Assembly: GCF_000003815.2 (NCBI RefSeq)
Contig: NC_049982.1
Span: 13,483,822 to 13,547,821 of the forward strand
Length of the DNA: 64,000 nucleotides
Reading direction: 5' to 3'
Origin: Branchiostoma floridae
Lineage: Eukaryota; Chordata; Leptocardii; Amphioxiformes; Branchiostomatidae
In this document: piece by piece, positions 12,001 to 63,700 of the stretch
Position numbering within the stretch: position 1 is the first letter of the stretch
How the letters are laid out: every line of letters starts with the position of its first letter
Notes under the pieces: generated by a model
Told to the model about the DNA's origin: nothing
Database searches by the model: none
What the model saw: only the letters and a program-made list of their open reading frames with translations
Translations under genes and position numbers: made by a program

Positions 12001-12166
12001 TGTCCACCTCGGCCATCTCGTCCACGTCCTCCTGGAGCAGGATGCTGAGAATGTAGCGCGTGTAGATCATGGCGTCGATCCCGCGCATCTCCAGCTCCTG
12101 CCCCAGCCAGGACTGCACACCGCTCGTCTTCAGGGCCGTCAAGGCCGGCAGGACCATGGTTTTCAT
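1..12166 (-). CDS. KIAA0232: KIAA0232 homologue, 5' half (partial, runs off left edge)
   Basis: Five coding exons on the minus strand, in transcript order: 12166-11870, 3691-3625, 973-886, 610-458 and 231 to beyond base 1. All junctions use GT/AG and keep frame. The first exon carries the family's conserved N-terminal block (SWLGQELEMRGIDAMIYTRY, later KKTAAVQCLQSVSDQ). The second continues as DAGIESLVEELCYRLKELQ and the fourth begins YYEAFPALGD; I recall these blocks in the same order in human KIAA0232. The last visible exon is basic and Ser/Lys-rich, with no recognised domain. The start is either Met at 12166 or Met at 12157; an upstream 5' UTR exon is likely but not identified. Molecular function is not established for this family. 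The identification is strong; the exact start and the 231 acceptor are moderate. Confidence 0.85.
974..3624 (-). other. Intron of the KIAA0232 homologue
   Basis: A 2.65 kb AT-rich intron between the exons at 3691-3625 and 973-886. It holds short AT runs and a tacatgtacatgtacatg tract at about 1025-1041. I see no gene, RNA or recognisable mobile element in it. Confidence 0.7.
6114..6218. other. Assembly gap (105 N)
   Basis: Run of N within the large KIAA0232 intron. The open frames that cross it are artefacts of the N run. Confidence 1.
8635..9005. other. Assembly gap (371 N)
   Basis: Run of N within the large KIAA0232 intron. The apparent open frames over it are meaningless. Confidence 1.
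9997..10055. repeat. 59-bp near-perfect palindrome (29-bp arms, 1-bp spacer)
   Basis: The left arm (9997-10025) and right arm (10027-10055) are exact reverse complements around a single C. The arm core reads agcctgtttctaaatctacc. A diverged copy of one arm lies near 25733 (agcctgttcctaaatctcca), so the arm belongs to a dispersed repeat. Such a palindrome could form a cruciform. It may be a transposon end in inverted array or a local assembly artefact. Confidence 0.85.
11870..12166 (-). CDS. KIAA0232: First coding exon of the KIAA0232 homologue, conserved domain
   Basis: This 297-base exon encodes about 99 residues. It has the Trp-Leu-Gly-Gln-Glu helix, the GIDAMIYTRY motif, an acidic stretch with QEDVDEMAEVD, a basic Lys/Gly segment and the AAVQCLQS helix. 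It ends in phase 0 at a CAG/GTGAGA donor. GC content is clearly higher than in the flanking AT-rich introns. The open frame continues upstream to a Met at 12295, but that extension (Trp/Arg/Cys-rich) does not resemble the family, so I prefer 12166 or 12157. The next exon that keeps both family similarity and frame is 8.2 kb away at 3691. Confidence 0.85.
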
Positions 12167-40900: not shown

Positions 40901-43900
40901 ATCGTGGGGCCGAAGAACGCCCAGCGGATCCTGCGGGAAGTGAACGACTGCGGCACGCCCTGCAGCGGAGACAACAGGCAGTTCTGCGGAGGACAAAGCA
41001 GCATGGCGCTGTTCGATGGTGAGTTTGACTTCCCTACATAGAAATTGGTGGAGCCTGACGCTGGGACGTATCCATAGAAGTACATAGAGTATCATCTTGA
41101 ACTTCTACACTGAAGTTTAGATTAAAACGCTTTTCTAACTTCACAGCGATATCTTGTCACAAATTATACATTTACTCATACTAAAATCGGGTTATACTGT
41201 ATGGGATAGACGAATGATTACTAATTAAGACCTAACGGGTGTGTTCTCCAGTGAAGATGGGACGGTGTGGCGGGTACCTGTACAGCACGCGGGGAACTGT
41301 CTACTCACCCAACTGGCCCGACCCGTTTCCCACATCAAACACCTGTTCTTGGACCGTCACTGTTCCAGAGGTGAGGTCCAATCGCTTTACTTTATTTGGA
41401 TTGTGTTGTAACTTTAGTTGATATGAAATCACGATCAAAGACACATGAACTGGATCGGGGCAGGTAGTTTTTGTCCTTTGCTAGCTGTCGACAGTGTCGT
41501 AGTTTAGATATCATACAACTAACAATAATTTCGGTTGTTCAACATCATTGTATGGACAATTCTATGATAATTGAACTAGATAATGAAAGACTATGTAAAA
41601 TCATGTCAATCACCTATCCTCGCGCCCTCCTATGTACAGGACAAATTTGTCAGACTCCGCTTCAAGTACTACGACATCCCGGATAAAAACGACTACGTCT
41701 CCGTCTGGAACAACGAAACAGACTCCGGGGTGGTTCTAAAACCGCAGGACATGAAGGATGGGTATGTGGTGGAGTCCAACACCGCGCATCTTTACTTCTC
41801 GTCCGATCCACACGGCAGCGGAGGTGGATTCTCTCTGCTGTATGAAGGTAAAATCATGAGAAATTTCGGAAATTTTAGCGCTTGTCTTGGCGTTAAGATA
41901 ACGAATGCATGCGTATATTTACCTTTGCCAGAATGGCTAAGGTTATGTTTTGGGCTTGTGAGTCTGTGTGTGTGTCTGTCTGTCTGTTAACAGCATAACT
42001 CGAGAAGCCTTGGATGGATCCTGATGATATTTGGTAGGTGGGTAGGGGTCGGGAAAACGAAGGTCAAGTTCGATAATGGGCCCCCTAGCGGCTTGCTAAG
42101 GTACTGCAGCGGAAACTCAATTTTTTATATCTCGTGTTCTGGACATGCTGTGGTCATGATTTTTGAGTGGTAGATAGTCCTCGAGGCAGAGAGTAAGTGC
42201 TGTGAGTTTGGGCTCCCTAGCGGCTTTTTTGGAACTGCAGGCGCCGGTTTCCTTTCAAACTTTGGACGAGAATAACTCTACAACGTGTTGACGGATCGTC
42301 ATGATTTTTGGTATGTAGATAGAATGAGTGATGACTTACATAATGGTATACTAATTATGCAAATCAACAGCTAATTTGCATAATTAATGAGGAAAATTCA
42401 TAAATCCACTGCATTCCATGATAGGACTTTCAAACTTGTCACATATGTAGCTGGGAAGGAGAGAAATGCCGATAGATATCAATTATGCAAATGATGACCT
42501 CATTTGCATAATTAATGAGAAAATATGAACATGTTGACGGATCATCATGTTTTTTGGTATGTAGGTAGCGTAAGTGAAGACCTACATAATGAGATACCAA
42601 TTATGCAAATCAACAGCTAATTTGCATAATTAATGAGGATATTTTATAAATTCACTACATTCCATGATAGGACTTTAAAACTTGTCACATTTGTAGCTGA
42701 GAAAGAGAGAAATGTCAATACATATTTATCATGCAAATGATGATCTCATTTGCATAATTAATGAGAAAATATGAACGTGTTGACGGATCGTCATGATTTT
42801 TGGCATGTAGATAGCCCAAGTGAAGACTTATATAATGTGATACTTATTATGCAAAAAAACAGGTAATTTGCATAATTGATTAGGAAAAGTTAATAGTTGC
42901 ATTCCATTATAGTACTTTCATCAAAGTTGTCACATATGTAACTGAGAAAGAGGGAAGAGAGTAAGAGGTGTATTTAAAGACTTTGAAAGAGAATGGATCA
43001 AAGGATCATCATGATTTTTGGTATGCTGATAGCTTAAGTAATGCTTGATACAATTTGATATCAATCAATTGTAACTTGGGATCTAATTTGCATAATGAAT
43101 GCCGAAATTTTATAAACCAACTCCAAGCATATAATTATAAAGAAAATGAAATGAGTAACGCATTTGTCTGCAGACATCATTCTACATAACAAACCTGGTT
43201 TATTTGGCAAAGGTATGTGTTCGTGGAACTCTAGTTTATGATTTGAAGAGACGGTAGATGTGAGCTAGATCTCGAAATGTCGCCTGCAAACCATTCCCGA
43301 CATCCAAGCATCGGTGTTCAGTTAGTTATGCCTGTCGTTCATGCAGCGGTAAAGCAGTGTACTGAACCGAACATTCCTCACGGTATGACGAGTGCAACCT
43401 TCTTCCTGCCGGGCCACAAGGCGTCCTTCCGCTGTCGGTATGGCTTCACCAGGGTCGGGCCCAGAACAGCCACGTGTCAGGATAACGGCGAGTTCGACCA
43501 ACTCCCCAAGTGCGTGCCCAACAAGGGCACCGTGGTCACTACTATAGGTAAACACCACTTAATAAGGTGTCAGACTAAAGAAATCTTTCTTTGTTTTGTA
43601 ACGAGTGTAGAAGGGTTGCTACGTGTACACCACGTGGTGTGATATTATCAAGATTGCAACGTTTAATTGGCGTAGTTTTCTGTACGTATATGTGGTAAAT
43701 GTTATTTTTATTTATTTATTCATTTGTTTGTTTGGCGGTACAATCAGTCAATGTTACCTAACTAGCCATTGGCTACTGTTAAGGGCTAACAGTTTGTAAC
43801 TGGTTTGTAAATATGCCTACAAACCAAACAGAAATGCACGTATCATGTTGTCTGTTTCCGAATCTGAAGGGCCAAAGAGAACAGATGCAGCGACCGCGAC

Positions 43901-46900
43901 AGACAGAAACAGCCGGAGAACTAAAACTACAGACCCTACAGGTATGGTAGAAAATACACACTGTGCTGTTGCACAATACTGGATTGGAATCTTTTGAAAA
44001 CCTTATGCTTAGCTGCGAACGCATTTGCTGGCAAAACGGATAGTCAGAAATACGACAGCTGACGGCTATAGACCGATGTATTGATGAGTCCCATACTGTG
44101 GATTTGTTATAGCGATGCCCGTAGGTCCCTCTGACAGATACGGAAGGACGTTCAGCACCGAGGACAGCCATGACACCGCTGGCGGACTGCCGACGCCGGT
44201 TGCCGAGGCCGATCCAGGGACTTCAGACAGGCAATCCTCCCACGTCAAATTTAGCTATGGTACGTGAGGAGAACGTTGTGCCATATGTGCAGTTATGCTA
44301 GGGATGCGACAGAAGAACAGTCTGCTCTCTTTGGCCCTTCAGAAACGGTAGGCATTGCAAGGACATTCTCTTTTGCCAGCGTCGCCGCTCGCATTGCAAC
44401 ATGTGTTATTGCGAGCAGTATAACGCATTCAGTGTGATGCGAGTGGTGGCACTGCCAAGAGAGAGTGTGCGGTTACAAAGGAAGATTAGAGATAAAAGTG
44501 AGAAAATCATTAACATCATGTCATGACTAAATATCCTGAGTAGCAAATGTCACATGTAGTGGATTATGTGTTTGTGAGGGAATAGTGACTCGTTGCAATT
44601 TCTTCCTGGTGAAAGCAGTATACCAACAAAAATATGATAATGGCTTACTGTTACACAATACAAAATGCTGTGGTCTTTGGTTTTAAAGATTGACAACACT
44701 ATAAGATTTGTGATTGCCTTTTTGTTTCAGTTCTTGTCCTGATCGTGGCCCTCAGCATAGCTGTGCTCCTTATTGTGGTGCTGCTCGTCTTGGTTCTTAT
44801 ACTCTGCAAACAGTAAGAGTTGACAATACAACATTTGTCCAGACATATGAGAAAAAAAAACACATAAAACTCTTCTTTGTTAGGAAAGGGTGGGATTCTG
44901 TGCCATCTGTCAAGAAAACAACCCGAGCTCCTGTATCTACTGCCCATGAGAAACTACATTTTTGGAGTGATTCAAAGAGATGTACCAATGCAGCATCAGT
45001 AATGCTGAAGTACATTCACTTTAGGTATTTAGGTGTTCAAGACAATCAACGCCTCTATAACAACATGGTGGTATTATGGCACCCGGTAGAATTATGAGAG
45101 TAGATGTTATATCTTACCTTCCGTTTCCCACCACGGAAAGCCGTGAGCACCTTTCACGTTATGGTGTAGCCAAAGTCAAGTCTGAAAGTGCATATTTTGC
45201 TAGATTAAAACACTAATCTTAACAATCAGTTTGAAACTGGAAATGATGATGGGATGGGGAGGGGAGGGGTATGATATAGCAAGTTACAACGTCATGGGGT
45301 CACAGGTCACATGTACAGACCTATGTTAGGAGATGAGGGGTGACGGTAGGTTACACCATACTTTACATAGCTAAATATCTAACTTGTCTTATCGCATTAT
45401 CAATCATTTGAATTCTACCCCCCCCCCCCCCCCAAGAAATATTTCCGTCACATCGAAATAATGTATATCTATCGTATTCTATACTCTAATATGGAAAAAT
45501 GACCTTATTCACCTCCAGGAAGAAAGAGCGAGAGGGGAATTGTGGGGATGAGCGTCGCAATGGCGAGCTTGTGGTGTACGAGACGGTTCCCATGACTCCT
45601 ACAAAAAGGTAAGAAGGAATGAATTGGAACAAGTCGAATGAATATGGACTTTAATGAACCGCAACTGTGACACATGTATACGTCACACTTCTGTAGTTCT
45701 TCTTGCGTGAAAAGTTTGCAATATTAACGTCGTAGTTATACAATGCAATAGACGGTTTGGCATAATTGCTTGATTAGAATCATATTTGATATCCCGTTAA
45801 TCTACAGTTGTTAAAGATATGAGTTTTCAAGATCCGAGAGTACACATGATTGACCCAGAAGTTCGATGTACGAGTTAACACAATATCCAGTCACTTTTAC
45901 ATACCTTCCAGTCCCGAGGCGAACCCGACATCAAACGGCCACACGACGTTCCACCCGCCAAAACGCGAGAACATCTACGACTCCGTGCCAGAGGTACAGT
46001 ACGCCACGGTCAACAAGCGAAGGCAGAGTGTGAGGACTGCTTGCAATTTTGGAAATTCCACTAGCTTCCTTTATGATTTTTTTAATTTGCTTTAAGTCCA
46101 TGTTGATTTGATTATATGGTTAACATCTATGCACGCATCGACTTTCTGCGAAGTAAAAAAGTTTCAACCTATATGAACTCCTTCGGTCAATATTGACCAG
46201 GGTAAAATCCTAATTGATACGAGGGGCATTCAATACGTAATGTCCCTGGCCCACTTCCAGTTCTCTGATCTAGATGAAATTTTGCATGTGTAATGAGTCA
46301 TATCTCTATGGATTATGTTGCAAAAAACAGCTCTGAACTAATTGTGGTTACTGATTTACTGGTGTTTGAACTGAGTCAGGTGTGAAATGGACCAGGTGTG
46401 AAATGGAGCAAGTTGAGTGTCGCGCAGGTTTTTGTATTTGAAAGGACGCACACCAAAGGGGACTTTTGATGAAATGAAAAAAAACTTATGGTGATGATGC
46501 CCCATCATATGACCTTGTAAAACGCTGGCATTTTGAATTCAAACAAGGCCGGAAGTCTGTGGAAACAGCTCCCAGACCTGGTCGTCCCTCTTCTGCCATT
46601 GATGAGGCATCTGTCGGAGGACCAACCTGGGATGTCCTACAAGAACGGTGTCCAGAGCTACATCAAATGATGGGAGAAATGCAAAACTCTGGGTGGTTCC
46701 TATGAAGAGAAAGACTAATAACTGTGCCAAGTTTCATTAATCTCCTGCTATGGGAAATGGGTCAGGGACATTACTTATTGAATGCCCCTCGTATCAGCCC
46801 TACTGCGTCGACTGTGGCTAAACAGTCCTATACGAGAATTACAGTCTCTGCAACAGTTTTCAACCACGCTTGAGTTAAGTCAGTCAAACAGAGCCAGAAG

Positions 46901-47991: not shown

Positions 47992-48974
47992 TCACTTGAA
48001 CGTGATCAGGTACTCAGGATAAGCCTGAACCTCCGCAACGACGTCGAAGATGACGAAAGTCTTGGGATTGTCCGTGTCGTCCACGGCGCTGAGGCAGGCG
48101 TCGTCCACGTCCCCTGTCCCGTCCGGCAGGTCCCAGGGCCGGGGGTGGGTCAGCCCAGGAGCCCCCTGACAGGACCCTCCCGTCAGCACCCGCGCCAGGT
48201 ACATGTGCCGCTGTCCGGTCGCGCTGTCGGCCGGGGCGTGGCGGTCGTCTGCGGAGTCAGCTGAGTTGACGGTGAAGTACACACCGACACCGTAATCATG
48301 GTCTGAGTGGGTGGAGAAATGAGTAAAGGTTGTCAACAAAGACGACCAGGATATAGGATATAAACAACCATAGACACTAGATGTCTAGTACATACTTTCC
48401 TTTATCATTTTATAAGGTATAACGTTTAGGCTTATGCATAATGGAATCTTCAAACCCGAAACTACAACAGAAGTATAGATGTTTATCCTTACTATAATTT
48501 CCCGCGTTGTGCGAGTTGAAGCCCTGGATGCTGATGTCTTCACACATGTTCCCAGAAACCCCGTGGAACAGTTGCCGCTCGAAAGGCATGTCGGGTGGAA
48601 AGATGGCGGACAGCACCTGTCTCCGCTGCTGGTACTGGGTCCATAGGAACCGACTTTGAATCCGTTCGATCTGTACGGAAAATACAATTAAAAATAATTG
48701 TAAACTGCAATGTTTTTAGTTTGCTCAACAGAGATAACACAGGCATTTACACAGGCAATTCAAAGCGCAGCAACTATCAGAAATGTTGAAGCGTTTTCTG
48801 AAGCGAAGGAAAGTACAAGAAACGATACCTTAAGGATAGTTTTGTTGCCAGTGATGGTGTCTGTGAACATCCGGGACACACGCTGATACTCAGCTGTTGT
48901 GCGGTCCACGGGTTCAATGGCGAGAGCAGTATCGTACCTCATCCTGGTCCACTCATCTGGGGTGTCGGACTTTT
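47992..48974 (-). other. ART catalytic cassette 2 (three exons, C terminus)
   Basis: Exons 48974-48829, 48670-48493 and 48302-47992. The linker (DEWTRMRYDTALAIEPVD, AEYQRVSRMF) is followed by RQLFHGVSGNMCEDI (His), YGVGVYFTVNSADSADD (Tyr) and AYPEYLITFK, then the stop. Same H-Y-L triad, exon sizes and phases as cassette 1 (143/178/282 against 146/178/311 bases), so the two arose by a three-exon tandem duplication. The sequences have diverged strongly, with an insertion in the loop before the last strand (PWDLPDGTGDVDDACLS). Confidence 0.88.
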
Positions 48975-51900
48975 CTACGGTTATGAAACAACGTGAATCA
49001 TTTAATTGATCTTCATTTTCTTGTATGCAACTGTAACTTCGTTTGATCTGCTGTTAACAGAAGCTACAATATCATAAGAAATGTCTGGAAATGCTATTTT
49101 ACTACAGAAGGATAGCTCTGTTTTCTTATTTACCACTTAAACGTAAACTAAATCAAAATCTTAGACACTAATAACTTACCTTTGAACGTGATGAGGTACT
49201 CGGGGTACGCCACTGTGTCGTGGAACACCACAAAGATGTTCGGGTTTTCCTCGTCATCAACCACGCTATCGTAGAGGAGACTGCCGTCTTGTGTTTTGGA
49301 CGGAGAAGTCACGAGGTCCGGCGCGCCCTTGCAGTAGTCTCCAGTCAGGACTTTCGCCACAAATACATGTTTGTAGCCCTGATCGTCCGGACGGGAGTAG
49401 GAATCCTGAAGGGCGTAGAAGGCCGAACTCGCAAAGTAGACACCGGATCCAAACAGGTTTTCTGTGAGGAAAGGAATGTGGGTTGTTATCTTCTTCAAAT
49501 GAATTCGAAGGTGTTGACACTAAAAGCAGCAGGCAAAAGGCAGTCTCCTACCTGTTCTGCAGAATGATCTGTTGAAGCCGTGCCGAGCGACCTTGTCGCA
49601 CGTTTCAGCTGACGTCCCGTGGTACAGACGGCGCTCTAGGTTTCTGTTACTGATCCTGCCGCTCGTTTCTTTCTCCTTCTTGGTCGCCATGTACTGCGTG
49701 TGGCAGAGGCGATTCTGAACGCGTTTCACCTGTAAAGGGACACAACATTATTTAGTAGTCTTGAGTGCATTCTTCCATTTTCTATGGCCCAGTGGATACG
49801 CGCAACATCCCTCTACCTCATTTTCATATGCCGAGAACGAGCCCAAGATCATGTTCGTCGTTTTAAGTCGAAAAACGAAATGCCTTCTCTCGCTTTGCTT
49901 TCAGAAGCTGCAAACAAAGAACATGCATGTATCGCAGTTTTCCCTTACCGATTGTATTTCAATGGCGTTCCCTCCGGCGGATTGCCTGAAAGCCTTGACA
50001 ATGCCGTCGTACTCTGGACTGTTGGCGTCAACACTGACCATGTCGAAGTCACTTTTCACGGCAGTCCAGGTAGAGGGGAATTCTGGTTCGCCTGTAAGAA
50101 ACATTGAGACAAAATCTTCTTTAGAAATAAACGCGAATGCAACAAGAGCATTACGTGGCCCCTACTAATATTAGTTCTGACTTTTAACTGGACATTGCTG
50201 AGTCCTGGTCAGCTCTTTCAAGTTTAAACGTCTTGGGAAATGGGTCAGCTGCACGGCACCAAGTCTTTCGCCATGTTCGAAAAAACGACTTTAGCGCCTC
50301 ATGTCATCACTTAACAGATTACCAACCTGCAGTCTTCCTCTTCAGCTTGTAACGATGTCCCTCTTGTACAGTCACGAGGATGTTTTTGTCAATGTGGGCC
50401 AAACACTCCCCGACGTCATCAACGTCAACCCTGACCCGACTGTGCCCCTCGTTTAGTGCATTTTCGATCTTTAGGTTGGTGAGCCTGTCAAACTCCACCT
50501 CGGTACCCTGGTCCACGTAAACCCACTTGATGACTCCGGCGATGAGCTGGGCGTGTTCCTGCTGCTTCCCCTCGTTCATCACGCGGGCCAGGATCTGGTG
50601 GATTTCGGACTGTAGAACTAGGATGTCCTCAGCAAGCCCCTGGATGAAGAGCAATGAATACATATCACCCTACCATACAAATGTTAGGATTGCTAGGGGA
50701 CATCAAAGTTCTTGAAAAGATGGAATTATCCAAAGTTTGCCTCCATCTAAGATGGAATTTGTTTGTTTCTCAGCTTGAGGGAACTACCTGAATTGTAGTT
50801 AGTCACCGCTTAAAAACTAGACTTCATACCTGAAGGAGGATCTTCTTCCCGCCATTGCAGATCTCCATGTAGACGTCTCGTTCTAACGCCTTCTGCAGAA
50901 TGGTCGCGACGTCGTTGTCTGTCAGCCGTGCGATGAGCTTGTCGGCGATGTCGTGAGATTTGCTCTCCCTGTTGGCGGTCTCGCGGATCTTGTTGACGGC
51001 AGACTCCACGTCCTCCTTGCTGCCCGCGTAGATGTCGAGCAGAACAACCGGCTTCTGTGGTTTGGGCGGGGGCAGCTTGGCCGGCTCCGGACGTATCTTC
51101 TTCACCAGTTTCTTCACTCCTGAAAATAAGTATTGCATTTTCTATTAGATGAGAACATTGTAGAGACTGTCAGTAATCACCAATCAATCAATATAGAAAA
51201 CGTTTAGTCGTATTGAAATGTTTGCTAAAGCCATTTTTATGCTCTTCGTCCTATTATGTTACGTTTATATATGTATAATGGTACTATGATATACACGTAT
51301 AATGGTACACTACACACCTGACACGAAACTCTTCAGAGACAAGGAGGAAGACGTTTTCAAACATTTTCCCAGCTTGTCGTGGAACGGTTTCATCATGCCT
51401 GCTTCAAAGATCACAATGCGGACATGTTTCAGGTGTTTGGGATTTTTCTTCTGGGCGAAGTCAGCAATGGCCTCGATGATCATCGTGGCTGACTCCGTCG
51501 GGTCTTTGGCCATTTGTCCTGTAGTTGGAAAAACAAAGATTATATGATGCTGCTACTGACGACTTATCTATATAACTACAGATTTTGCACCATTGTTAGA
51601 AGTTCCATCAAGGATTCCCTCCGATGCTTGCTAGCTCATGAGGAATTCAATTCTTATTCACAGACTGATTTTAAACTTACCGGTCCCTAGTGCTGGAAAG
51701 GCCAAGCTTTTCAGTTGATGACATTCGGCATAAGCTAAGCAGTTCATGACTGCCTTCTTCCACCTCTCAGTCTCGAATCCGGGAGCCACGAGATGGAGGA
51801 TGTACCTGGAAGCCAGGCCGCCAGCAGCCGTGATGCCCACGCCGTCCCTCTTCAACTTGTTCTTGTCTGTAACAGAATACATTGTTGCACCTTTATTGTA

Positions 51901-54900
51901 GATTATCAATCATAGGCCCAAGGTATTCTGCAATGTCTTCTAACATTCAAGCATATTTTGGAAAAAAGAATTCTGAATTGTAGCAAATTTGCTAAGTGTA
52001 ACTACACATCTCAGTCTACAATGTTCAACGTGAAGGAAAATCTTACCATACTTCTCGCACTCCGTCTGTACAACAGGTCCTCCCTTCTTCTTCAGAACTT
52101 GGGAAACTTTTCCTGTAATGAAGCAGAGCACGTTTGGTTAAATCGTCTGCAAGTATCGACGCGAGGAAAACAAGATTACATGTTATGACGAGGCCATAAT
52201 TCTTTAGAAATTGATTCGCCGTTATCGTTATTCTGTACCGAGTGATAGGTCCATGTCTCCCCGGGTGGGGTTAACGATGGCGTCCACCTTCTCCCTGGTG
52301 ATGTCGCCTTGCTCAACCTCCACCACGACATCCCGCATGGTCACCTTGGTCTTGAAAGTTCCGTCCGGGGTCATCTGAACTGCAACGGGCTCTGAAAGAT
52401 AAGATACTTGAGTCCTCCTGTGTCAACGTGAGTGAACTGTTAGAAAGAGGAAATCTACAAGAGATAAAAAGATTGGATATGATTTGGCAATACCTTCCCT
52501 GTCGACAGCAGCCACAGATGATGTTGGCTCCATCAAGGACGCAGCCCCTGCACCAATCTCCGTGCGTTTACCAAGCTCGGACAAAAAGGCCTAAAACGAT
52601 ACACATCTCAAGAGTTTAAATGTGACCCAGAGAATAAAATAATCATTCTTGTACGAAAAAATTATTTCTAACATTGTCACATGGGCACGCTGTTGTGAAG
52701 TCAACTGGAACGGCCTATGCTATTCAGGATACATGTATTTTGATTGATTGATAGAACATGTAATGTCTACCTCAAAACTTGGTTGATCGAAGATCACAAA
52801 CTTGGCCTCTTCCAGGTCACCTGCCGGGTTTTTGTTGCTGTGTGACAGTGTTTCCTCAAACATCAGGCGGGCGACGACGTCCTTAGGATAACCCAGACCT
52901 CCCGTACCGACGGCGGGGAAGGCGATGGTGCGCTTGCTGTCTTTGTCCGCACTTTTCAGACATGCTGTAACAATTTTGCGTAGAACCTACGGAAAGAATC
53001 GGGCAGAAAGTTATAAAATGATATAATAATTGTTACTGTGGCAAATGTATTAATTGTATATACAGAGATATGAACAAAAGTGAAATCGCTTACGTCCTCA
53101 GACTTTGCAGTGTCCTGTGAGTTCCAGAAAGAGCACACGGCATGGTACACTAGATTGCATCCCAGATTTCCCCCCGATGTATACACAACTTCTCCGTGAG
53201 CTGGAAGCCGTCCGAGGTCTCTCTTAATCTTATCGCATTCCACCTAGGAAAGGAAAAAAGGTTGTTGAAGTTTGCTTATACACGAAAGACACTTTCTGGT
53301 TGAATTGGAAACATCCTCATACACGACAAGATCAAAACAAAAACCCACCTGAAGTGTGGGTCCGCCTTTATCCAGGAGCGCTTTGGAGACCGCACCAGTC
53401 CTTAGGTTCAGGTCTGGGCCGATGGTGTTGACAATAACGTCAGCCTTGTAAAAACATAAACTGTTAGTGTTCAATTATTTTGTTGAGCTTAAAGCTGTGG
53501 GAAAGGTTTTTCATGAAATGCATAAATAAAGTTAAAAGTGTGGAAGAGAATAATCACCTGTTGATCTGAAATGCTGCCTCTGATGAGCGTGATCTTCAGT
53601 CCCTGGTTAGTGAACATGCTGTAGGAACTCGGGGTTACCAGGTGCTCACCGTACTCCGGCGGACATGGTGGCGGTCCTCGCGCTTCAGCAGGTGGTAGCA
53701 CGACCGACTCTAGACTATTCTCCCGAGACTCCGAATCCGGATTCCATCCTCCGTACTCATTGAAGGTCTCCAGTAAGGCCTTGTTGAACGATTGGGCGAT
53801 ATCCAAGTCGATTCCAACGAAGTGGACTTCATTCACCTTGCTCTCCTTGTTCTTCTTGAAGTACAAGCCGGTAGCCCTGACCACCGTTTTGGTGCAAAGG
53901 TCTAGCGGCCCCCCAAATATGCCGGATGATATGGCAGGGATCGCTACAGAGCTGAAGCCATATCGCGATGCCATCTCCAGGACATTGGTGACCGTTTTGA
54001 ACAGCTCATCTCGGGAGCGCTTGTCGTCTTTGATCTCGTGAAAGTTCGGCCCAACAGCATGGATAACTGCCTTGCACGGCAACTTGCCAGGACCAGTGAC
54101 CCTCACGGCACCAACCATCAAGCCTGCGGGCTCGTCCTTCATAATTTGGTCGCAATGATCCTGGATTTCCTTGCCGCCTGCCTTTATGATTGATTCCGCA
54201 AGACCACCTCCGTTCTTCAGATTCTTGTTTGCCGCGTTCGTGATGGCATCGACGTGGTGCTTTGTCAGATCGTCTTTAAAGACGACCAGCTTTCTGCTTC
54301 GAGGGAGTAGAACGTGATTAAAGGGCTTGCAATGCATATCGTCTGGTTTCTTTTCCTGGTGTGTATTGATGATGCAGTTGAAAACGTCCCCAATGGACTT
54401 CAGCTTTTCTTCTCCAGGTTGTCCGGGTGAAAAGTATTTCTTCATCCCCGGGTTTTGGATGGATAGTTGCTGATGTGTAACGCTGCCCTGTAGGCGCTGG
54501 AGATGTTTGGCGGTTTCTTGTATGCCATCTTCGGTCCCCACAAGTGTGAATCCCGCCACCTCTCCATCTGTGGTCGCCGTGATGTAGCCATCACCCTTTT
54601 GAAGTCTCCCCTGCAACTTGCCTATGGCCTCCTTCTTCATCTTCTGCAGGAACTCCGCCACACCGACTGGCATCTCCACAAAGCGCTCTAGTACAGTGTT
54701 GTTCTTCAAGAACTGGTCGATTTGCTCCTTCACCATGTTGACGTTCTCAGACGGACCTGTAACCAACACAAGTTTCCCATCCTTGTCACTGTTGACAGTT
54801 ATTTGGACAAGTCCCGAAAATGAGTCCTGGATAGTAGAGAGGAAAGTTGTCCACTTGTCCGAGTCGAGGACCTTCAGAGCTGGACCATGGACAGGCATTT

Positions 54901-57900
54901 CCGTCTCCGTCACCGTGCTCCTGAACCGGTCGACTGCTTTGAGATACTCGTCCTCTGATTCGGCCACAACGGTGAGCATCCCCCCCTCTACGGCCCAGTG
55001 AGCTTGGATCCGCTGTTCCTTCATGCACTGTTTGATGTACGACTTCCACGGGTCTCTGGCAACGAAGCGTAAAAATCCCTCGGCTGCTGACACAGGCATC
55101 TGGTTGGTCGATATCTTCCTGAGCTTTTCGTACACTTCGACTGTAGCGGCATTGATGGCCCCGGAAACCCCCTTAAAAACAAGACGTCCAGCTGTGTCTA
55201 CTTCCACGCGGTGTTTCTTCGCCACGGCTTCGATGTACCCGGTCTCCAAGAGATGCTGCAGCTCCAGTGGCTTCATCTCTATGGGTGGACCAAGGACAAC
55301 TGCTGTTTCCTTCGCATATTCCTCCTCCTGTTTGGAGATGGAGTCTCGTATGGCCGTTTCAACTTCGGAAACATGCACCTTTGGCCCTGTGAGCGTCACA
55401 GCCTGGTCGGCGGAACTTACCTTCATCACCACTTTTTTGTCTGGATCAGAACGGTTGCATATCTGCGCCAGTCGGGTCGAGACGGTGTCCCAGACAGTGG
55501 CGGGAACCTGGATCGACTCAGAAGAGAAACTCAAGAGGATTTTGTTGAAGGTGTTCAACGCCTCACGGGACCAGTCATGCTCATCAATGGCCCGTGCAGC
55601 TTTGTTCTCTGCAAACGATGGAACAATGGCTGCGAGTCTGCGGTCGTCTTCGTGGGGCCACACCAGTGATGCGGAGACAGAGCGAAGGGATGACTTCACG
55701 AACAACATGGAGTCGACATCGCTGGTCATGTACTCCATGACAATTGGCTCCACCTGAGCCACGATCGGTGGTGGCAGTTTGATTGGTTCAGGTTTGACAG
55801 TTGCAGTCTTCATTCCGAGGCAAGGGTAGAACGGTTGGACTTGTACCGCTGTTTGTTGGAGCTTGTGCTCCCGCTTGATGACGTTGGAAACACCTATGTG
55901 ATCGATTTGATTCCAGTAAGTAACAATGGAAATACTCTCCTGATTGTGAGTGCTTCAGATGTTTATATCAACATATAGCAGTGTAGTGCGTAATGACATA
56001 TGGTTTTGCATAGATCATTACTTTATAGATATACAATTAGTAGCTCTGTAGATACTGGGGACGACAAGGATTATTACATTAGATATTGTAGCGCTGGGGA
56101 GCGATTCAGTGATTTCCCTAAAGATTTCGTTCTCCAAATGACGGCAACCATTACTTACTTTGGTAGTCTTCAAACTGGACGTACGCCATCTTCTCCTCGG
56201 GAATAAGCTTTACATCGGACACGTCGCCCCCTCCGCTGCGCCTCTTGCTTTCGAAGTAAAGAGAAACGGTGTCCTTGTGCGTGGTGGCCTTCAAGATAAA
56301 AAAAAATCGTTATTTCTTGTTGTTACGATACTCAAGTGCAATGGATTCTGTTGGTAACAGGTACATGATGTTGCTGTGCAAGAGTTACCGACCTGCTCTG
56401 GTAAGTTTGTCACAACGATCCAATCTGTCATAAAGACGGGGACGGCCGAGAGTGTGGCGCCTCGAAGCGGCTTTCCCTGGCACTTCCGTATGACTGTCTC
56501 CATATCTGAGAAAGACATAAAGAGTCGTGTGATCGATCTGTAAATGCCTCAGAAGCACGACAAATACGTTATTGGTACATCTGTGAACAGTCCATTCTGT
56601 GCGAAGACCTTTACGTTTATAGCATTTACATGGCGTACGCCGTTATTTGAATACCATTGCCTTGGATTTTACACTACTGTAAACGTTTGAGAGTGGACAC
56701 GTACGTGTGTTGAATTCTTACCGAGAAATTGTAAGCACAACACAATTCAGACTCAGCATGTCTGCGTTGTCGCTTCAATAAATATTGAATTCAATTGAAT
56801 GGAATACGAAAAGCGTGTACCTTGCATGACTTCCTCAAAGCTAACGAGGACGGTTCCTGGTTCTTTGCCGAATTCAACAGCCTGGACCTCGCTTCTAGCC
56901 CTGGCCTCCATGTACATTGTCACTTTAAAGTAAAACAAAAAGGCATTGATAAGAAGATTATATACTTATAGGCAAAAACACATTAGATAACAAGTTTTCA
57001 GCCAGTTAATCCACTATGATGATGCCTCACCTGTCTCGGCGTCGGTGTCCTTCGGAAGTCCCGTTAAGAACACCCTGCGTTGGTCGATAGGTGCCGGCTC
57101 CCGAGGACGTTCCGCCGCCGGGACTGACACCATCAACTCCGCACCTTCCAGCTGCAGAGGTACGTTCTTTAGGACAGCGATGATAGCTGGAGAGGGAGAC
57201 AAAGATTGTTTTATGTCGATTTTTCTGATATAGTATATGCATTGGTCGTGTCTTAAAGATGGTACACCGTTCAGCGTGATTCTTATGTTCTCTCTGTACT
57301 GTTGCCCAAAGTATCATATACAGTTAACAGAGTGAACACGTTACACCAAAGTAACAGGTAACAACTCTCACCTGTAGCATCTGTGAACGTGACCGTCAGC
57401 ACTCCGTCCTTCCTGTCCAGACTCTTGACCTCGCCGCCGTCAGAGATCCTCTTACTCTCGAAGAAGTCCCTCAGCGTGTCGTCATCGGTAGTCTCTTTCA
57501 TCCCTTTCACCACGATGGTGCAGTTTTCTCCATCAGTACCTGTGGATGATGATTTGCGGTTAGTTTGCTGAATTGGTTCGAAAACTGGGCCGTCGGTACG
57601 GATACAAAAGATGTGCCATTATCCACGGACAAGCTATGTTACCTGTATCTGTTATCTCCTCAGGGTCGATGCTATCGGTTTCCTGTGTGACGTCGTCTTC
57701 CCGCTCATCTTGTCCGGTTGCCGACTCCTCCTCCGGCTCCTCCTCTGGGCTGGCTCCATCAGGGGTCATCACATTTCGGTGAACCTGAGATATTCAAGAT
57801 TGGTGGATAGAGAGATTTAAGTGAATGCCAGTTCAGAATAAGGTAGGGGGATTGTTATTTTGAGAGAGCAATTGAAGTCTACCTGAGCTCAGCTGGTTTG

Positions 57901-60741
57901 TTCAGTTCCACACATTTATTAGATGATCGCCAGTCAACGTCAAAAATACAATCATAAAAAAGGAAATAGTATGCTTAAGTCTGTGCAGATGACCTTGAGA
58001 AGCGCCCCCTCCTGTATATGTACAATGGATGGGGAGATGTAACTTCCCGTCATCACGGCGTTGTTCAGCGGCTTCTCCTCCTCTCGGCCCGTCTTGGACT
58101 TGACAGAGCTGTTCGGAGTATTCCCTGCGAAATATCAAAAGAAATCTCCAAAACCTGATGATGGCTCCGTCGTTTGTCAAACTTATCTTTGTGTCTAATG
58201 TTTCATGATGAACCGGCCTTCACAAATGTGAGATTGTGCATTATACTAGTATAATTCATACAAACAAACAAACGTAAGTGATATCGCAATAAGGAAACAA
58301 TATATCCTGTGCATAGAGAACGAAGTGAAAAGATCTGGAATCATACCTTCATACAGGTTAACCGAAGGTACAATTGACGGTTTGTCCAAGCCAAATTCAC
58401 GCTGCGCGTCTTGTAGAAGCAGTTTGCGCTCAGTTTCCGACGGCACGTACTTCTCCGGGGAGCCGGCGGTCGCTCCGTCGTCTGGCTGACTCTAAACGTC
58501 AGTTAGTAGCGCATTATCATACATGACATACATGTGCATACATCCAAAAACTATTATTATTCCAGATAGGAGCAACCACTGTCCAAGAGTCGGGCAAAAT
58601 AAGGCACCGTAACAGTTACAAGTTCCTAATACCAATGATAAACACCGAAAGTGAAAGTGAAAGAACTTGTGGACATCCAAAACATGATTTTATTTTTTTT
58701 TTAAATTCCATGAACGCACATCCTCGAAGTAACTATTTGGGGTGAAATTACGAGACCTTTGTACACTTGACAGAGGCATATACAATTTACCTCTGTTTGG
58801 GCATCGAAATCCTCTATTCCCTCTCTCTCCAGAACGACGAAGTCGTCCAATGAATCTGTGCGTTCTGAATCCGGTCCCTCAGTTGTTTCTCCCTCTTCTT
58901 TGGTTTCTTCTGAAGTCTCGGTGGGTTTCTTGTCAGCACTGTCGTCTATATCAGTAGATTTCTCGGTGACATCCTTGTCATCACTCTCAGGTTGGTCAGG
59001 TGGGATGGGGGTAGCTGGGCGCGCCTCAACCCTCAGCGGAACCTCTCGTTTCTCGCCGTTAACGGTGATTTCAAAGACCTGTTCCTGTCGCTGAAGGACG
59101 TTTTGTGCCGCTGGAAATGAAATTTACTTTGATCGCTAAATGTGTACGGCTACATTGATATGTACAGCAGGTTTAGTACACAATGAAAGAAAAACATTTT
59201 TTTTTACACGGTGGCCCTATGAACATGGTTTCAGCGCAAAGTTGACGTCTTAAATCACGACGACGTTGCCATTGTTCCATGGCGCATTCAACGGTTTACT
59301 TGACAAAATCATTCTGACAAACTTGATGTCGATTTGGGTTTTCTTCAGTACTAAACACACGGATTTGTGACACCAATTTGCGATAAAGAAACAAACTTCA
59401 GATATGAGTAGATGATTTCCGCCTTAGTGAATATTCTTCAACTCCGAGCATAAAATAAGCGAAATCTAATCAAGGCCTGACATTTCAAAGAAACTGCATC
59501 GCTAATTCAGCAAGTCCATACTTAAGACTTTCTAGTAAGAATGGAGATTTATTTTTCTGAGTACAAAGTGAAAGGGACGCACCGACATAAACAACTAGTC
59601 AAGCGTTGCCATTGCGTCATGTCCATTGTTCATAAAGCAAACTTTGACCTCTTGAAGCGGGACGAAATCAGACCGTTAAAACGGATATTACGACGCCAGA
59701 AAACATTGAATAATACGAAAGAGACTATAGAGGGAACAGATAGGTACTTGAAGAGGCGTCTCAATAATCTTGCATTTGCTGCCTTTTTTTCGACAACCTG
59801 TTGCGCACTTGGATTTCTTGGGGCCAAAGTTCAGGCCGCCATCTTTTACTTTGTGCGTGTCAGACTAATTTTTACCTCCCGGATATACCGTGCGTTAAAG
59901 GGTTTATTGCGTCTCCACGTGTAACTTCAAGCCATAGTTGTATTGCAGTACACTTGTAAAATCTCAAACCTTTCTTCGTTTTCCCTTACATGTGATACAT
60001 AACGTTAAATTGTGTATTAATATGACACACTGAAAGTGGACACATTGTATTTATGATAAACAACATACCTAGTTACGTTCATGTAAGTACCTGTAACTGT
60101 TATATCCCTTGATTGATCGTTCACATCTGCAATGTTAACCTGAAACTTGTTTTGTTGGAGTCCTCTATCCGCTTGTAAAGCTTTCCTAATAAGCTTTCCA
60201 GTGATGCGTGGCGACCGACAACAGTGTGACTCAGAGCATATTTGTTTTGTTGTCATATTCAGTACATAAAATAATAAAAGCAACAACCGATTGAAAAGAT
60301 ATCAATGTTTTACCATATCATAATCACCATGACGAACGTTTTGATGTTTCTAAATTGATGTAGACAGAAATGCTGTATGTTCACACAGACCAGACGGAAA
60401 GTTCAAACCGCTGATTAACGATAACAGTATCTCGTGACTCGTTTGGCAGGTTGCGTGAGGGTGACTCACACAGCTGCAGCTGGTGTTTATCATACAAAAT
60501 AATACCGTACGTGTGAAGCATTTGATCGTACGTGGCTTTTTCACTTACTTTCTCGGGCTTCAAACCAAACATACGCCACCTGCCCACCGTCTGTCAGTTC
60601 CACCTTCCTGACGTCGCCCCCGCCAGACTTCCTCCTACTCTGGAAGTGGATATTCAACTTGTCCTTCAGGGTCCCAGCTGGCACGTCAGCCGGCAGACCA
60701 TGGACAACTACGCACCTTTCGGGATCATCTAAGGTATCCAT
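47992..60741 (-). CDS. PARP14: PARP14-like macro-PARP with two tandem ADP-ribosyltransferase domains
   Basis: Twenty-eight exons, 2,343 residues: 60741-60549, 60180-60091, 59110-58791, 58491-58347, 58124-57994, 57784-57643, 57539-57372, 57186-57031, 56922-56821, 56505-56393, 56288-56159, 55893-53558, 53444-53349, 53243-53094, 52986-52771, 52590-52494, 52391-52239, 52112-52047, 51866-51681, 51518-51318, 51119-50830, 50639-50327, 50091-49949, 49729-49552, 49461-49180, 48974-48829, 48670-48493, 48302-47992. Order: RRM1, acidic linker (about 100-340), RRM2-RRM4 (about 342-585), KH-like repeats, macrodomains 1-3 (about 1090-1730), a further helical/KH-like segment, WWE (about 1860-1928), ART copy 1 (1932-2132), ART copy 2 (2133-2343). 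Vertebrate PARP14 has three macrodomains, WWE and one ART; it reads and writes mono-ADP-ribose and acts in interferon and STAT6 signalling. The exon at 60180-60091 is the least certain; the start could also lie further upstream. Confidence 0.85.
49180..50091 (-). other. ART catalytic cassette 1 (three exons)
   Basis: Exons 50091-49949, 49729-49552 and 49461-49180. The pre-catalytic linker (STWTAVKSDFDMVSVD, SPEYDGIVKAF) is followed by RRLYHGTSAETC (catalytic-triad His), FGSGVYFASSAFYA (Tyr) and AYPEYLITFK (Leu in place of Glu). H-Y-L is the triad of PARP14, a mono-ADP-ribosyltransferase. The last exon does not end with a stop: it has a GTAAGT donor after the final strand and joins the second cassette in phase. 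Confidence 0.88.
50327..50639 (-). other. WWE domain exon
   Basis: Contains IKWVYVDQGTEVEFDRLTNL, then KIENALNEG, and ends in a YKLKRK strand, the pattern of WWE domains that bind poly/iso-ADP-ribose. The exon ends in phase 1, the same phase that precedes both ART cassettes. Confidence 0.8.
51318..53600 (-). other. Macrodomains 2 and 3 of the PARP14-like protein
   Basis: Macrodomain 2 (ADVIVNTIGPDLNLRTGAVS, AFPAVGTGGLGYP) runs from the end of the large exon through three small exons. Macrodomain 3 (VDAIVNPTRGDMDLS, GKVSQVLKKKGGP, LAFPALGTG) uses four exons. Both keep the Gly-rich phosphate loop (GTGG and GTG), whereas the loop in the first motif is degenerate compared with macrodomain 1 (no GGG run). 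This fits mainly ADP-ribose-reader roles, as inferred from the family. Confidence 0.8.
53558..55893 (-). other. 2.3-kb exon: KH-like repeats and macrodomain 1
   Basis: The largest exon of the window (778 codons). After the end of RRM4 (VIKREHKL...VQPFYPCLG) it holds about 500 residues of repeated alpha/beta units with lysine- and valine-rich strands (for example VVMKVSSADQAVTLTGPK and ITVNSDKDGKLVLVTGP), like the KH repeats described for PARP14. Macrodomain 1 (about 54300-53750) has the ADP-ribose-pocket motifs DAITNAANKNLKNGGGLA and IPAISSGIFGGP intact, so binding or hydrolysis of ADP-ribose is plausible. Macrodomain 2 starts at the 3' end of the exon. Confidence 0.85.
56159..57539 (-). other. 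RRM2-RRM4 block of the PARP14-like protein
   Basis: Three RNA-recognition-motif folds, each spread over two or three exons. They start at CTIVVKGMKETTDD, RRVFLTGLPKDTD and DWIVVTNLPEQ. Each ends in a Phe-acidic strand followed by a helix and a last strand (TFTDAT/AIIAVLKN, VSFEEVMQ/DMETVIRK, VQFEDYQ/SVSNVIKRE). RRM1 (60741-58791) follows the same plan. PARP10 and PARP14 also have N-terminal RRMs. Confidence 0.75.
59111..60090 (-). other. Intron of the PARP14-like gene
   Basis: About 1 kb of intron. A 127-codon plus-strand open frame (59541-59924) has no recognisable domain and no splice or promoter support. I take it as chance. Confidence 0.6.
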
Positions 60742-63700
60742 ATTTGGTCACTATTCTTTTAACAACAACAGTCGAACCCCATGGCTACAACCCACACTTC
60801 CTTCTTTCAGATATGTGTCGATGTGGAAAGACGACAGCATAAAATGGCCGACCGAAACCACACCTGCTTATGCTGGGACTTTCCGAAGGGGGAATCCCCC
60901 TCGTAAGCTACAGGCTGAGTACAGGGCACCGCATTGGCTGTAACCTAGGGCGGCAGGTATGACGTAAGGTGAAACTGAGGAAGAATCATGTTTCCATGAT
61001 CAATAACACAAAACAAGGTTGCGTCGTCATCAACATTTGTATGTCAACATGAACAACGCACAAGCGGTAACTTTGTGGGCCTCTTGATGGAAAAACAAAT
61101 ACATGTACCTGAGGCAGAGCTTAGCTGATCTGCATAACCACAGGTGAGTAGATGCTCTCAGCAGGGTGGTTTTCCTCACTCATTACTCAAGCAAATAAGT
61201 TATTGAATGATACTCCACATTCTAATTTGCATGAGACACTAGATCTATCATTGTCTTTTAGTAAATTTATGATATTCTATTATGCCAGTGCCATCATTTG
61301 CACATCCCTTATATCAACTTACCCCGTAAGGAAATGTCACCCTTCATAATTTTTGGGCACCAATCTAATTCTTCTCACTTGGTTTGCTTCAAACACAAGA
61401 CCAAATCCTCAAACATGCTGCCAGGATAATGCATTACATTCCCTTTCAAACCCTCACGTATGGATAACGTTACATTGATTCTAAGACTGTGACCTCATTG
61501 ATCCTACTTAAGTTTCAACTCTGGAGCCTCTCTGCAGAATTACTGCAATTTATTGCAGAGGTCTTCTACAAGAAAAGCAAAATAACACTTGTTNNNNNNN
61601 NNNNNNNNNNNNNNNNNNNNNNNNNNNNNNNNNNNNNNNNNNNNNNNNNNNNNNNNNNNNNNNNNNNNNNNNNNNNNNNNNNNNNNNNNNNNNCATAACT
61701 GTACAGAGAAATTACAGCCGGTAAATTCAAAGCTTGCTTTCTAGAAACAAAGTAAAATGGCTGTCTTCCACCAGTAAAGAATGGTCAGATCAATAGTGAC
61801 AGATGCTGGTTTATGATTGGTTATGAGCAGACAAAATCCCATGTTCTGGTGCTGCCATCCTGAATGTGGGAAGGCCTTTTTGTTACGGGAAGTTTGACAT
61901 TTCTACTGCTAGGGATGCCTTTTTACCAGAGTACACGAAATCTCATGTCACCTATTCAAACTGGGCAAGGGGACTGCTAGTATTCTTGCAAGCTACAATT
62001 AAGATCCATCCAGCCTGTCACATTCCTGACCATCCCTTACATCCAAGTCAACCTACCCCAGGACAGCCAAATGTACTCCGAGGAACTTATGTTAGTGCCC
62101 TTGTTACTGAACAATAATGGCAGTGTTAACGCAGGTACCTAAATGCACCATCAACATAACGAAGAAAAAAAAAACTACAGATAGAAAACTGGCAAAACAA
62201 ACTGCTAAATGTGTGCTCCTATCTACATGGTACTGATGGTACTTACATGTATGTACCAAGTATGGCAAGAAATTAGAGAAATGCCGAGCACTAGAGGTTA
62301 TTTAACATGTAATTACATTATTGGCGGTGGTGTTTTCACTGCTCTTACTTGGAAGTATATATACATGTACATTTGCATGTGCAGATGTATGAAATATTTT
62401 GTTACATAACTAGATAAAAAGGTGAACTAGAGCCCCAACTACAGAGGGAGCTCAGAAAGAGATTTTTTTCCTACCTAATACAGTATCTAGTACATTAAGA
62501 AAACAAAATGATGGGAGTATAAAAGTTTCAATGAAGAAAAATAACAAAGATCATGCATTTCCTGTAGAAGACTAAGATTTCTTCCAATCACTTATGGCAC
62601 ATGGGAATTCCCTGAAATCCTACTTTGTTTAGAGAGAGTGAGCTACATGAGAATATTGAACTGGAAGACAGGCAAACAAGAACAGCTGTAACATCCCATA
62701 TTCTGACACTTTGGAGGTAATAATGTAAAAAGAACTAAGACAAAATCTTAGAAAATGTGGATATAATACAAATGGTGGGATGCAGAGGTAAGGGGGCCAA
62801 ACTCCTGTATGCACCAATAATAAAGATCTAACTCTTGATATAAGACCAAGCCTGATTGTTGACGCTTGATCACATTTAAAAACCACACAATGATTATCCT
62901 TGCTGCTGATTGTACATGTGGAACCCCGTCACTTGGAACTAAGAACAGGTCTCTAGAAAATGTTCCTCGTAGGAAAAACACCACACCTGAAGATGTACAT
63001 GCAATTTCATCAGTGCTATGCTCTATTTCTGCAGAAGTTCAAACTGCAATTCAAGCCATGGGTTCTACATTTTTAAAAACAAATATTTGTGAGTTATTTT
63101 TCCTACATGACAATTTTCTGAGACCTGAAGATTCTAACTCTACCTAATAGTCCCCACAGGGGATGGTGAGGCAGTATAACAGTTACTTTATCTCTCTAGG
63201 ACACAAAGACCAATACAGATAATATACAGATCTTTTAGACTAAATAGTGATTTGATTGAAAGCTTACTACATTTGATACCAAAGAACTTCACCTAGAAAG
63301 GCTTGGACTTTTTGGCAATATGAATAAATAATTTCACCTCTCTCACAAACAATCAAAAATATATTCACTTCCTCAATAAATATCCAAATTGGTTTTGATA
63401 CGTATTGCAGGTATTTCCAACTCTAAACTTTTGTAAAAGATTTGGTAAAATACTTTTGGATTAGGAAAACTTTTTTTTTACTATTTTACAAACTTTGTTG
63501 CTCTCTCAGCCCTAAAACTCCTGTTGCCTTCCGCTCTACCCCTTCCCTTCTCCCCACTGATACCTGCTTCGACTACCATATGATAACACATCAGCTTCTT
63601 TAGTTCACCATCATGTCTTCCCTTAGACATTCCTGGAAGACACCTGATCAGAAAAGGGGAGGTAATGTCCGGTCTTGGCACAGGCAACAACATTTCCCTC

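Follow-up and report, generated by a model that had tools for sequence, protein, structure and literature searches.

A PARP14-like gene of Branchiostoma floridae predicted to encode two consecutive ADP-ribosyltransferase domains

We analysed a window of 64,000 nucleotides from the amphioxus Branchiostoma floridae (contig NC_049982.1, positions 13,483,822 to 13,547,821 of the forward strand), the minus strand of which carries a PARP14-like gene. Quite probably this is a single gene in which a three-exon C-terminal module for an ADP-ribosyltransferase (ART) domain occurs twice, giving a protein of 2313 residues with a first domain (ART1) that would be a working enzyme and a second one (ART2) that would be specialised, weaker or regulatory. 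An initial annotation of this DNA, made by a model from the letters alone, had proposed one PARP14-like transcript with two consecutive catalytic domains. That proposal is supported in part, by a 27-exon gene model with two complete predicted ARTs in one open frame, by two separate matches to the catalytic domain model PF00644 and by a contrast in stop codons with all 13 other ART ends studied in the same genome. The locus would represent a PARP14-like macroPARP with a new C-terminal layout, two ARTs in place of the single one typical of described members.

Results

Two complete ART cassettes in one open reading frame

The gene model was built by hand and checked by script. It comprises 6942 coding bases, the sole stop being the last codon; all 26 introns have GT-AG borders, and the reading frame is open across all 27 exons. 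The whole gene and the features of its C-terminal part are the following.

47992..60741, minus strand: whole PARP14-like gene, 27 coding exons, 2313 amino acids, single stop at 47992-47994
49949..50091, minus strand: exon 22 (143 nt), ART1 pre-catalytic linker
49552..49729, minus strand: exon 23 (178 nt), ART1 with the catalytic His1986 and with Gly1987
49180..49461, minus strand: exon 24 (282 nt), ART1 with Tyr2017 and Ile2084; without a stop, ending AAG/GTAAGT (phase 1)
48975..49179, minus strand: intron 24, between the cassettes; best donor of 26, acceptor ranking 25th of 26, a stop inside the intron if it is retained
48829..48974, minus strand: exon 25 (146 nt), ART2 pre-catalytic linker, opening in phase 1
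48493..48670, minus strand: exon 26 (178 nt), ART2 with His2187 and Gly2188
47992..48302, minus strand: exon 27 (311 nt), ART2 with Tyr2219, His2232 and Thr2292 (third triad position), and the gene's only stop, TGA

In the spliced protein PF00644 matches two stretches with 115.9 bits in all; scanned alone, cassette 1 (exons 22-24) and cassette 2 (exons 25-27) reach 74 and 60.7 bits, respectively, at a cut-off of 26.7. The exon sizes of the initial annotation (143/178/282 and 146/178/311) were reproduced in the rebuilt model. Its further observations, that cassette 1 ends without a stop in a phase-1 GTAAGT donor and that cassette 2 starts in phase 1 with a linker of its own, are also borne out, with the reservation that the acceptor of exon 25 is a poor one (see below). 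The start and end phases run in parallel (1-0/0-1/1-1 in cassette 1, 1-0/0-1/1-stop in cassette 2), the first internal intron falls at alignment column 50 in both cassettes, and the second lies in a loop, at column 109 in one and 110 in the other.

The cassettes share 71 of 208 residues in a blastp alignment (E 3e-34) and 72 of 197 in a second alignment, which amounts to 34-37% identity overall. Compared with solved structures, cassette 1 scored best with PARP15 (143 bits), followed by PARP14 (139), PARP10 (130), PARP12 (87) and PARP13 (54); the values for cassette 2 were 115, 95, 80, 70 and 32 bits in the same order. Both cassettes align end to end with PARP15 chains. As PARP15 and then PARP14 are the best structure matches of each, both predicted ARTs are placed in the PARP14/15 branch. 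Neither ART matched any NCBIfam family (0 families), and no relative was found among 54 pattern matches in viral contigs and 44 in prokaryote genomes.

Coding potential was assessed with a codon model trained on exons 1-21 of the same gene. All six ART exons have in-frame scores of 0.28 to 0.82 per codon, the other two frames being lower in each, and introns 22 to 26 are negative in every frame. The fractions of identical bases in the two cassettes, 0.54, 0.60 and 0.36 for the first, second and third codon position (the alignment was built on residues and is biased that way), fit a long constraint on the protein. The frame of ART2 is intact over 211 residues. Two complete predicted ART domains, in frame and open, are confirmed by these data. 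A chance or assembly duplicate was considered as well and is ruled out by the 34-37% protein identity, by the absence of a shared intron repeat of at least 20 nt and by the absence of N runs from the gene; those in the window (6114-6218, 8635-9005 and 61594-61693) all lie outside the gene model.

The ART paralogues of the same genome served as a control. A search of the assembly (513 Mb, 431 contigs; the window is at 13.48 Mb of contig C4) gave 12 stretches of 10 kb around matches, in which 13 other ART ends were read: 11 PARP14-like ones (L009-L015, L036-L039), a degenerate copy (L010, 8586-9436) and the more distant L040. An in-frame stop follows 1-5 codons past the last Phe or Tyr of the last strand in 13 of 13. 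In cassette 2 the stop comes after one codon, and cassette 1 alone has no stop before its donor. This contrast strengthens the reading as one two-ART gene and weakens the rival readings as alternative C-termini or as two genes, which are weighed below. The nearest other pair of ARTs on the same strand, at 16.069 and 16.075 Mb of C4, has macrodomain-3-like sequence in between, as expected for separate genes; none lies between cassettes 1 and 2. No second two-ART gene was seen in the genome among the matches listed, whose counts are lower bounds.

The degenerate copy, at about 16.075 Mb of C4, is situated downstream of an intact-looking paralogue. This PARP14-like ART lacks the triad Tyr and has an in-frame stop in its tblastn match, and is probably a decayed or pseudogene copy.

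Active-site residues of ART1 and ART2

Active-site residues were mapped on PARP15 (PDB 4f0e) and numbered as in PMC8002165 (Table 2). The third triad position was set by the spacing of Tyr932 to Ile987 in PARP10, which leads to Leu637 in PARP15 (PMC8002165, PMC9189837). A placement of this residue within the YLITF motif was rejected, since Leu637 lies ahead of FVVF.

ART1 has His1986, Gly1987, Tyr2017, Ala2019, Ala2025 (Ser in PARP15), Tyr2030 and Ile2084. Its triad, H-Y-I, has the H-Y-Phi form (His, Tyr, and Ile, Leu or Tyr) used as criterion for mono-ADP-ribosyltransferases (mono-ARTs), and Table 1 of PMC9189837 gives the same triad for PARP6, 7, 8, 10, 11 and 12. ART2 has His2187, Gly2188, Tyr2219, Thr2221 (Ala in PARP15), Ser2227, His2232 (Tyr in PARP15) and Thr2292 (Leu in PARP15), and its triad, H-Y-T, falls outside the H-Y-Phi form. 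H-Y-T is given for no human PARP in Table 1 of PMC9189837, where PARP9, listed as inactive, has Q-Y-T; Thr or Ser at the third position has been reported in one Tetrahymena protein and in PARP9 orthologues (PMC2964712). His at the position of Tyr582 is found in no human PARP in Table 2 of PMC8002165. The same table has Thr at the Ala position and Ala at the Ser position of PARP16, and because PARP16 is a mono-ART, the Ala to Thr and Ser to Ala changes alone need not kill the enzyme. ART2 is also longer in two places: the distance from LTG to the third triad residue is 43 (PARP15, 39; ART1, 38), and the last hairpin measures 20 (PARP15 and ART1, 17 each).

At the third triad position the 13 other ARTs of the genome have Ile (7), Val (3), Met (1), Leu (1) or Thr (1, in L010); among the 11 PARP14-like paralogues, the residue is Ile, Val or Met in 9 and Thr in 1. 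The Ser577 position is Ala in 3 of 13, as in ART1, the Ala571 position is Thr in 2 of 13, and the Tyr582 position, His in ART2, is His in 0 of 13. Single pocket changes recur in this genome, and judged from these residues the combination in ART2 is its own. We infer that ART1 is a normal mono-ART and that ART2 is specialised, weak or regulatory. That ART2, by its active-site residues, is not a normal mono-ART is a point beyond the initial annotation.

The paralogue with Thr at the third triad position, as in ART2, is a PARP14-like gene with a single ART (L010, 2784-3065; C4, about 16.069 Mb).

Domains upstream of the ART cassettes

The remainder of the gene is organized as follows.

56159..60741, minus strand: exons 1-10, N-terminal RRM region with a PARP14-type RRM_1, a generic RRM and RRM_3, the last extending into exon 11
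53558..55893, minus strand: exon 11 (2336 nt), end of RRM_3, KH region (PF23084 above cut-off), macrodomain 1 and start of macrodomain 2 (PF01661)
51318..53444, minus strand: exons 12-19, macrodomains 2 and 3 (PF01661)
50327..51119, minus strand: exons 20-21, pre-ART region with a WWE-like stretch in exon 21

According to Pfam, one protein holds PARP14-type RRMs, the first PARP14 KH domain, three macrodomains and two PARP catalytic domains. The RRM models PF23222, PF00076 and PF23085 are all above cut-off, and residues 8-45 match the Nmi/IFP35 domain (41.3 bits, cut-off 25). KH_PARP14_2 exceeds its cut-off only when the frame of exon 11 is scanned alone. PF01661 matches three stretches of the spliced protein, two of them within the part from exons 12-19 and all upstream of the ARTs. 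The WWE model PF22005 gave 21.8 and 20.0 bits, the latter on the spliced protein, under its cut-off of 27, so that a WWE domain ahead of the ARTs is only likely. The start codon precedes RRM-type sequence; as the N run at 61594-61693 lies upstream, extra 5' exons are possible.

Exons 1 (60549-60741) and 10 (56159-56288) contain similar RRM stretches with 45-48% identity in tblastn. This similarity suggests an internal duplication among the N-terminal RRMs as well.

Splicing between the cassettes and alternative readings

The reading as one two-ART gene depends on the splicing of exon 24 to exon 25. Splice sites were ranked with a leave-one-out matrix from this gene's own sites. The donor of intron 24 ranks first of 26; among the 4145 GT sites that the window has on the gene's strand, 4 reach its score, this donor being one of them. 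Several points weigh against the reading. The acceptor ranks 25th of 26, and 1186 of 3756 AG sites on the same strand score as high. Skipping of exons 22-24 leaves an open frame for 2112 amino acids with one ART, and retention of intron 24, with the stop inside it, also gives 2112 amino acids, consisting of the protein up to ART1 and a short tail. AATAAA is absent from the 1.2 kb past the stop, where only variant hexamers occur, so that the 3' end is provisional. Finally, the pocket changes of ART2 may mean that this domain is inactive.

On such grounds the gene might have alternative C-termini: a transcript would carry ART1, with intron 24 retained, or else ART2, through a direct splice of exon 21 to 25, and seldom if ever the two together. 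The two open 2112-residue products, the second weakest acceptor of the gene and the hexamers ATTAAA (49006) and AGTAAA (49103) in intron 24 speak for this arrangement. Against it, the donor after ART1 is the strongest of the gene, cassette 1 lacks the terminal stop that all 13 other ART ends have, and poly(A)-like hexamers are expected by chance in an intron of 31% GC (an expectation without shuffled controls), from which AATAAA is absent. We regard exclusive use of one or the other end as rather unlikely; the gene may switch between products with one ART and with two. The exact start of exon 25, with its first residues, is uncertain because neighbouring AG sites also keep the frame open: 49019 and 49010, 2 of 17 tested upstream of 48974, as well as 48956, 48893 and 48860 downstream.

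A division into two genes, a full PARP14-like gene ending after 49180 and an ART-only gene starting between 49180 and 48974, was also considered, as ART2 alone would make a complete domain. Here, too, the missing stop before the donor of cassette 1 is a counterargument. Moreover, no in-frame ATG is present in the 26 codons that precede exon 25 before a stop is reached, and a P-x-x-W-T motif common to ART1 and PARP15 precedes the first Met of exon 25. The start of this exon is conserved coding sequence and therefore must join an earlier exon. A separate second gene is unlikely, very much so in our estimate, and was rejected because an ATG is lacking and conserved linker sequence comes ahead of the first Met; the sequence argues for a single gene.

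ART2 might also be a decaying, non-functional remnant. It has Thr at the third triad and Ala571 positions and His at the Tyr582 position, its end branch in the tree described below is long (1.34; median 0.33), it scores below ART1 with the PARP14/15, PARP10, PARP12 and PARP13 chains, and a truly degenerate ART does exist in the family. That copy, however, has lost the triad Tyr and contains an in-frame stop, neither of which applies to ART2. Its 211-residue frame is intact, the pocket His, Gly, Tyr and Ser are kept, and its codon scores resemble those of the rest of the gene. Decay is an improbable explanation, and we retain the view of a single gene for a protein with two ARTs, the second of them altered.

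Origin of the second cassette

Exon sizes and phases had been taken in the initial annotation as showing a three-exon tandem duplication. The homologous exon structure and the parallel phases stand, but 'showing' is too strong a word, because models of three paralogues could be fitted with these phases too, each cassette is closer to PARP15 than to its partner, and the tree joins the two at a support of 62/3. Three-exon phase models were tried for the 11 paralogues, with phases imposed by script; good models were obtained for three (L011, L012, L036), poor ones for two (L014, L037) and none for six. Parallel exon phases are likely a family trait and therefore expected also if cassette 2 was captured from a paralogue.

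The tree was calculated from the last ART exon, since full spliced models were few. It has 18 rows (the two cassettes, PARP15, the 11 paralogues and four more distant ARTs as outgroup) and 92 columns; the degenerate L010 copy was left out. In the best tree the cassettes are sisters (support 62/3), but neither is firmly placed. The only long end branch is that of cassette 2 (1.34 versus a median of 0.33), suggesting rapid evolution of ART2, which may have arisen by local copying or by capture. Local exon duplication is a possible origin, which the sister support of 62/3 neither shows nor rejects.

Capture, in which cassette 2 would have been taken from another PARP14-like paralogue instead of being copied from cassette 1, is compatible with the readings discussed above. 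It would account for the observation that identity to human PARP15 (81 of 191 residues in cassette 1, 78 of 195 in cassette 2) exceeds that between the cassettes (72 of 197). The third exon of cassette 1 matches nine paralogue exons at 77 to 100 bits, as against 55 bits for cassette 2, and no intron DNA repeat of at least 20 nt is common to both cassettes, the sole repeat being 30 nt of coding sequence at the end of the domain. This genome has multiple PARP14-like genes, several of which are located on C4, and at least four have been described as grouped on one B. floridae chromosome (Perina et al., 2014; PMC4245714), a statement repeated by Kar et al. (2026). On the other hand, the best tree joins the cassettes, though at 62/3, and the weak matches of cassette 2 fit its fast branch. 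The window contains no other ART copy detectable by tblastn except one 35-residue match (E 0.25), and the closest C4 match among the matches listed lies at a distance of about 2.5 Mb. Ahead of ART2 there is no second copy of exons 20-21, which is the outcome expected of a clean copy of three exons. In view of the tree and the absence of a near neighbour we consider capture the less likely origin and put it forward tentatively.

At 47992-48006 the stop of cassette 2 lies within a donor-like sequence, CAA/GTGAGC, with a score of 6.7 (2.7 to 11.1 for the real donors of the gene), and at the equivalent place cassette 1 has its real donor AAG/GTAAGT. Through a donor-like stop of this kind a terminal exon might have turned into an internal one.

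Surroundings of the gene

Just downstream of the gene, at 46215-46796, there are 44-nt inverted repeats, 93% complementary and 494 nt apart; the element resembles a small transposon with terminal inverted repeats. On the plus strand (20257-43642), exons that encode Kringle, WSC, CUB and Sushi domains belong to one or more extracellular mosaic proteins. An open frame on the minus strand (11813-12298) matches PF15376 (DUF4603) with 74.4 bits, and a 246-bp unit is present in 2.7 tandem copies at 42282-42956. Rfam gave 0 matches in the window.

Discussion

PARP14 is an antiviral enzyme that evolves rapidly, and how it relates to the inactive PARP9 is a matter of current interest. Under the reading that we prefer, some transcripts at least would join exon 24 to exon 25. 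ART1, with its H-Y-I triad and a pocket in which Gly, Ala and Tyr are kept and Ser is replaced by Ala, would be a working mono-ART. ART2, with H-Y-T, Ala to Thr, Tyr to His, a longer acceptor loop and last hairpin and a long branch, would be a specialised, weaker or regulatory second head. By analogy with the family, the likely job would be that ascribed to PARP14, an innate antiviral mono-ADP-ribosylation targeted by the RNA-binding domains and macrodomains.

A bolder idea, which we offer as speculation with the odds against it, is a two-headed macroPARP in which a working H-Y-I mono-ART is regulated, or widened in its substrates, by a fast-evolving H-Y-T ART in cis. Such a protein would be an independent one-chain counterpart of vertebrate PARP14 plus PARP9. 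If two ARTs are indeed made in one chain, this would be a new layout for the PARP family. One ordinary and one altered head would then amount to a natural experiment on the role of a second, degenerate ART, with the genome's own single-ART paralogues available as controls.

The initial annotation knew of no well-described animal PARP with two ARTs, and none came to light in the literature searched. The searches covered PARP14 and PARP in amphioxus and in other animals as well as wordings for two catalytic domains, with thin coverage of subscription journals; an unremarked two-ART protein may exist among public database gene models. The 'two catalytic domains' mentioned in PMC7072193 are the ART and the helical domain of PARP1, not two ARTs.

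Among known proteins, human PARP14 (BAL2, ARTD8) shares with the predicted protein the RRMs, KH, three macrodomains, a C-terminal ART of the same subfamily and, probably, a WWE-like region; it has one ART with H-Y-L (Table 1 of PMC9189837), whereas the amphioxus gene has two, with H-Y-I and H-Y-T. Human PARP15 (PDB 4f0e), the best PDB sequence match of both ARTs, is listed with one ART (H-Y-L) and two macrodomains (PMC9189837). Its pocket residues, G/A/S/Y (PMC8002165), compare with G/A/A/Y in ART1 and G/T/S/H in ART2. Human PARP10 has the H-Y-I triad in common with ART1, which scores 128-130 bits with PARP10 and up to 143 with PARP15; no macrodomains are listed for PARP10 (PMC9189837), in contrast to three in the amphioxus gene. 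Human PARP9 (Q-Y-T, inactive by itself) resembles ART2 in Thr at the third triad and Ala571 positions (PMC8002165, PMC9189837), but it is a separate protein and differs at the triad His and at the Gly and Ser positions, all of which are kept in ART2. PARP16 has Thr at the Ala position like ART2 and Ala at the Ser position like ART1 (PMC8002165), with one ART and the triad H-Y-Y (PMC9189837). A further comparison is with the PARP14-like paralogues of B. floridae itself (L009-L015, L036-L039), which belong to the same ART subfamily and in several cases have macrodomain-like exons upstream. Each of these has one ART exon with a stop past the last strand, whereas the gene described here has two ARTs.

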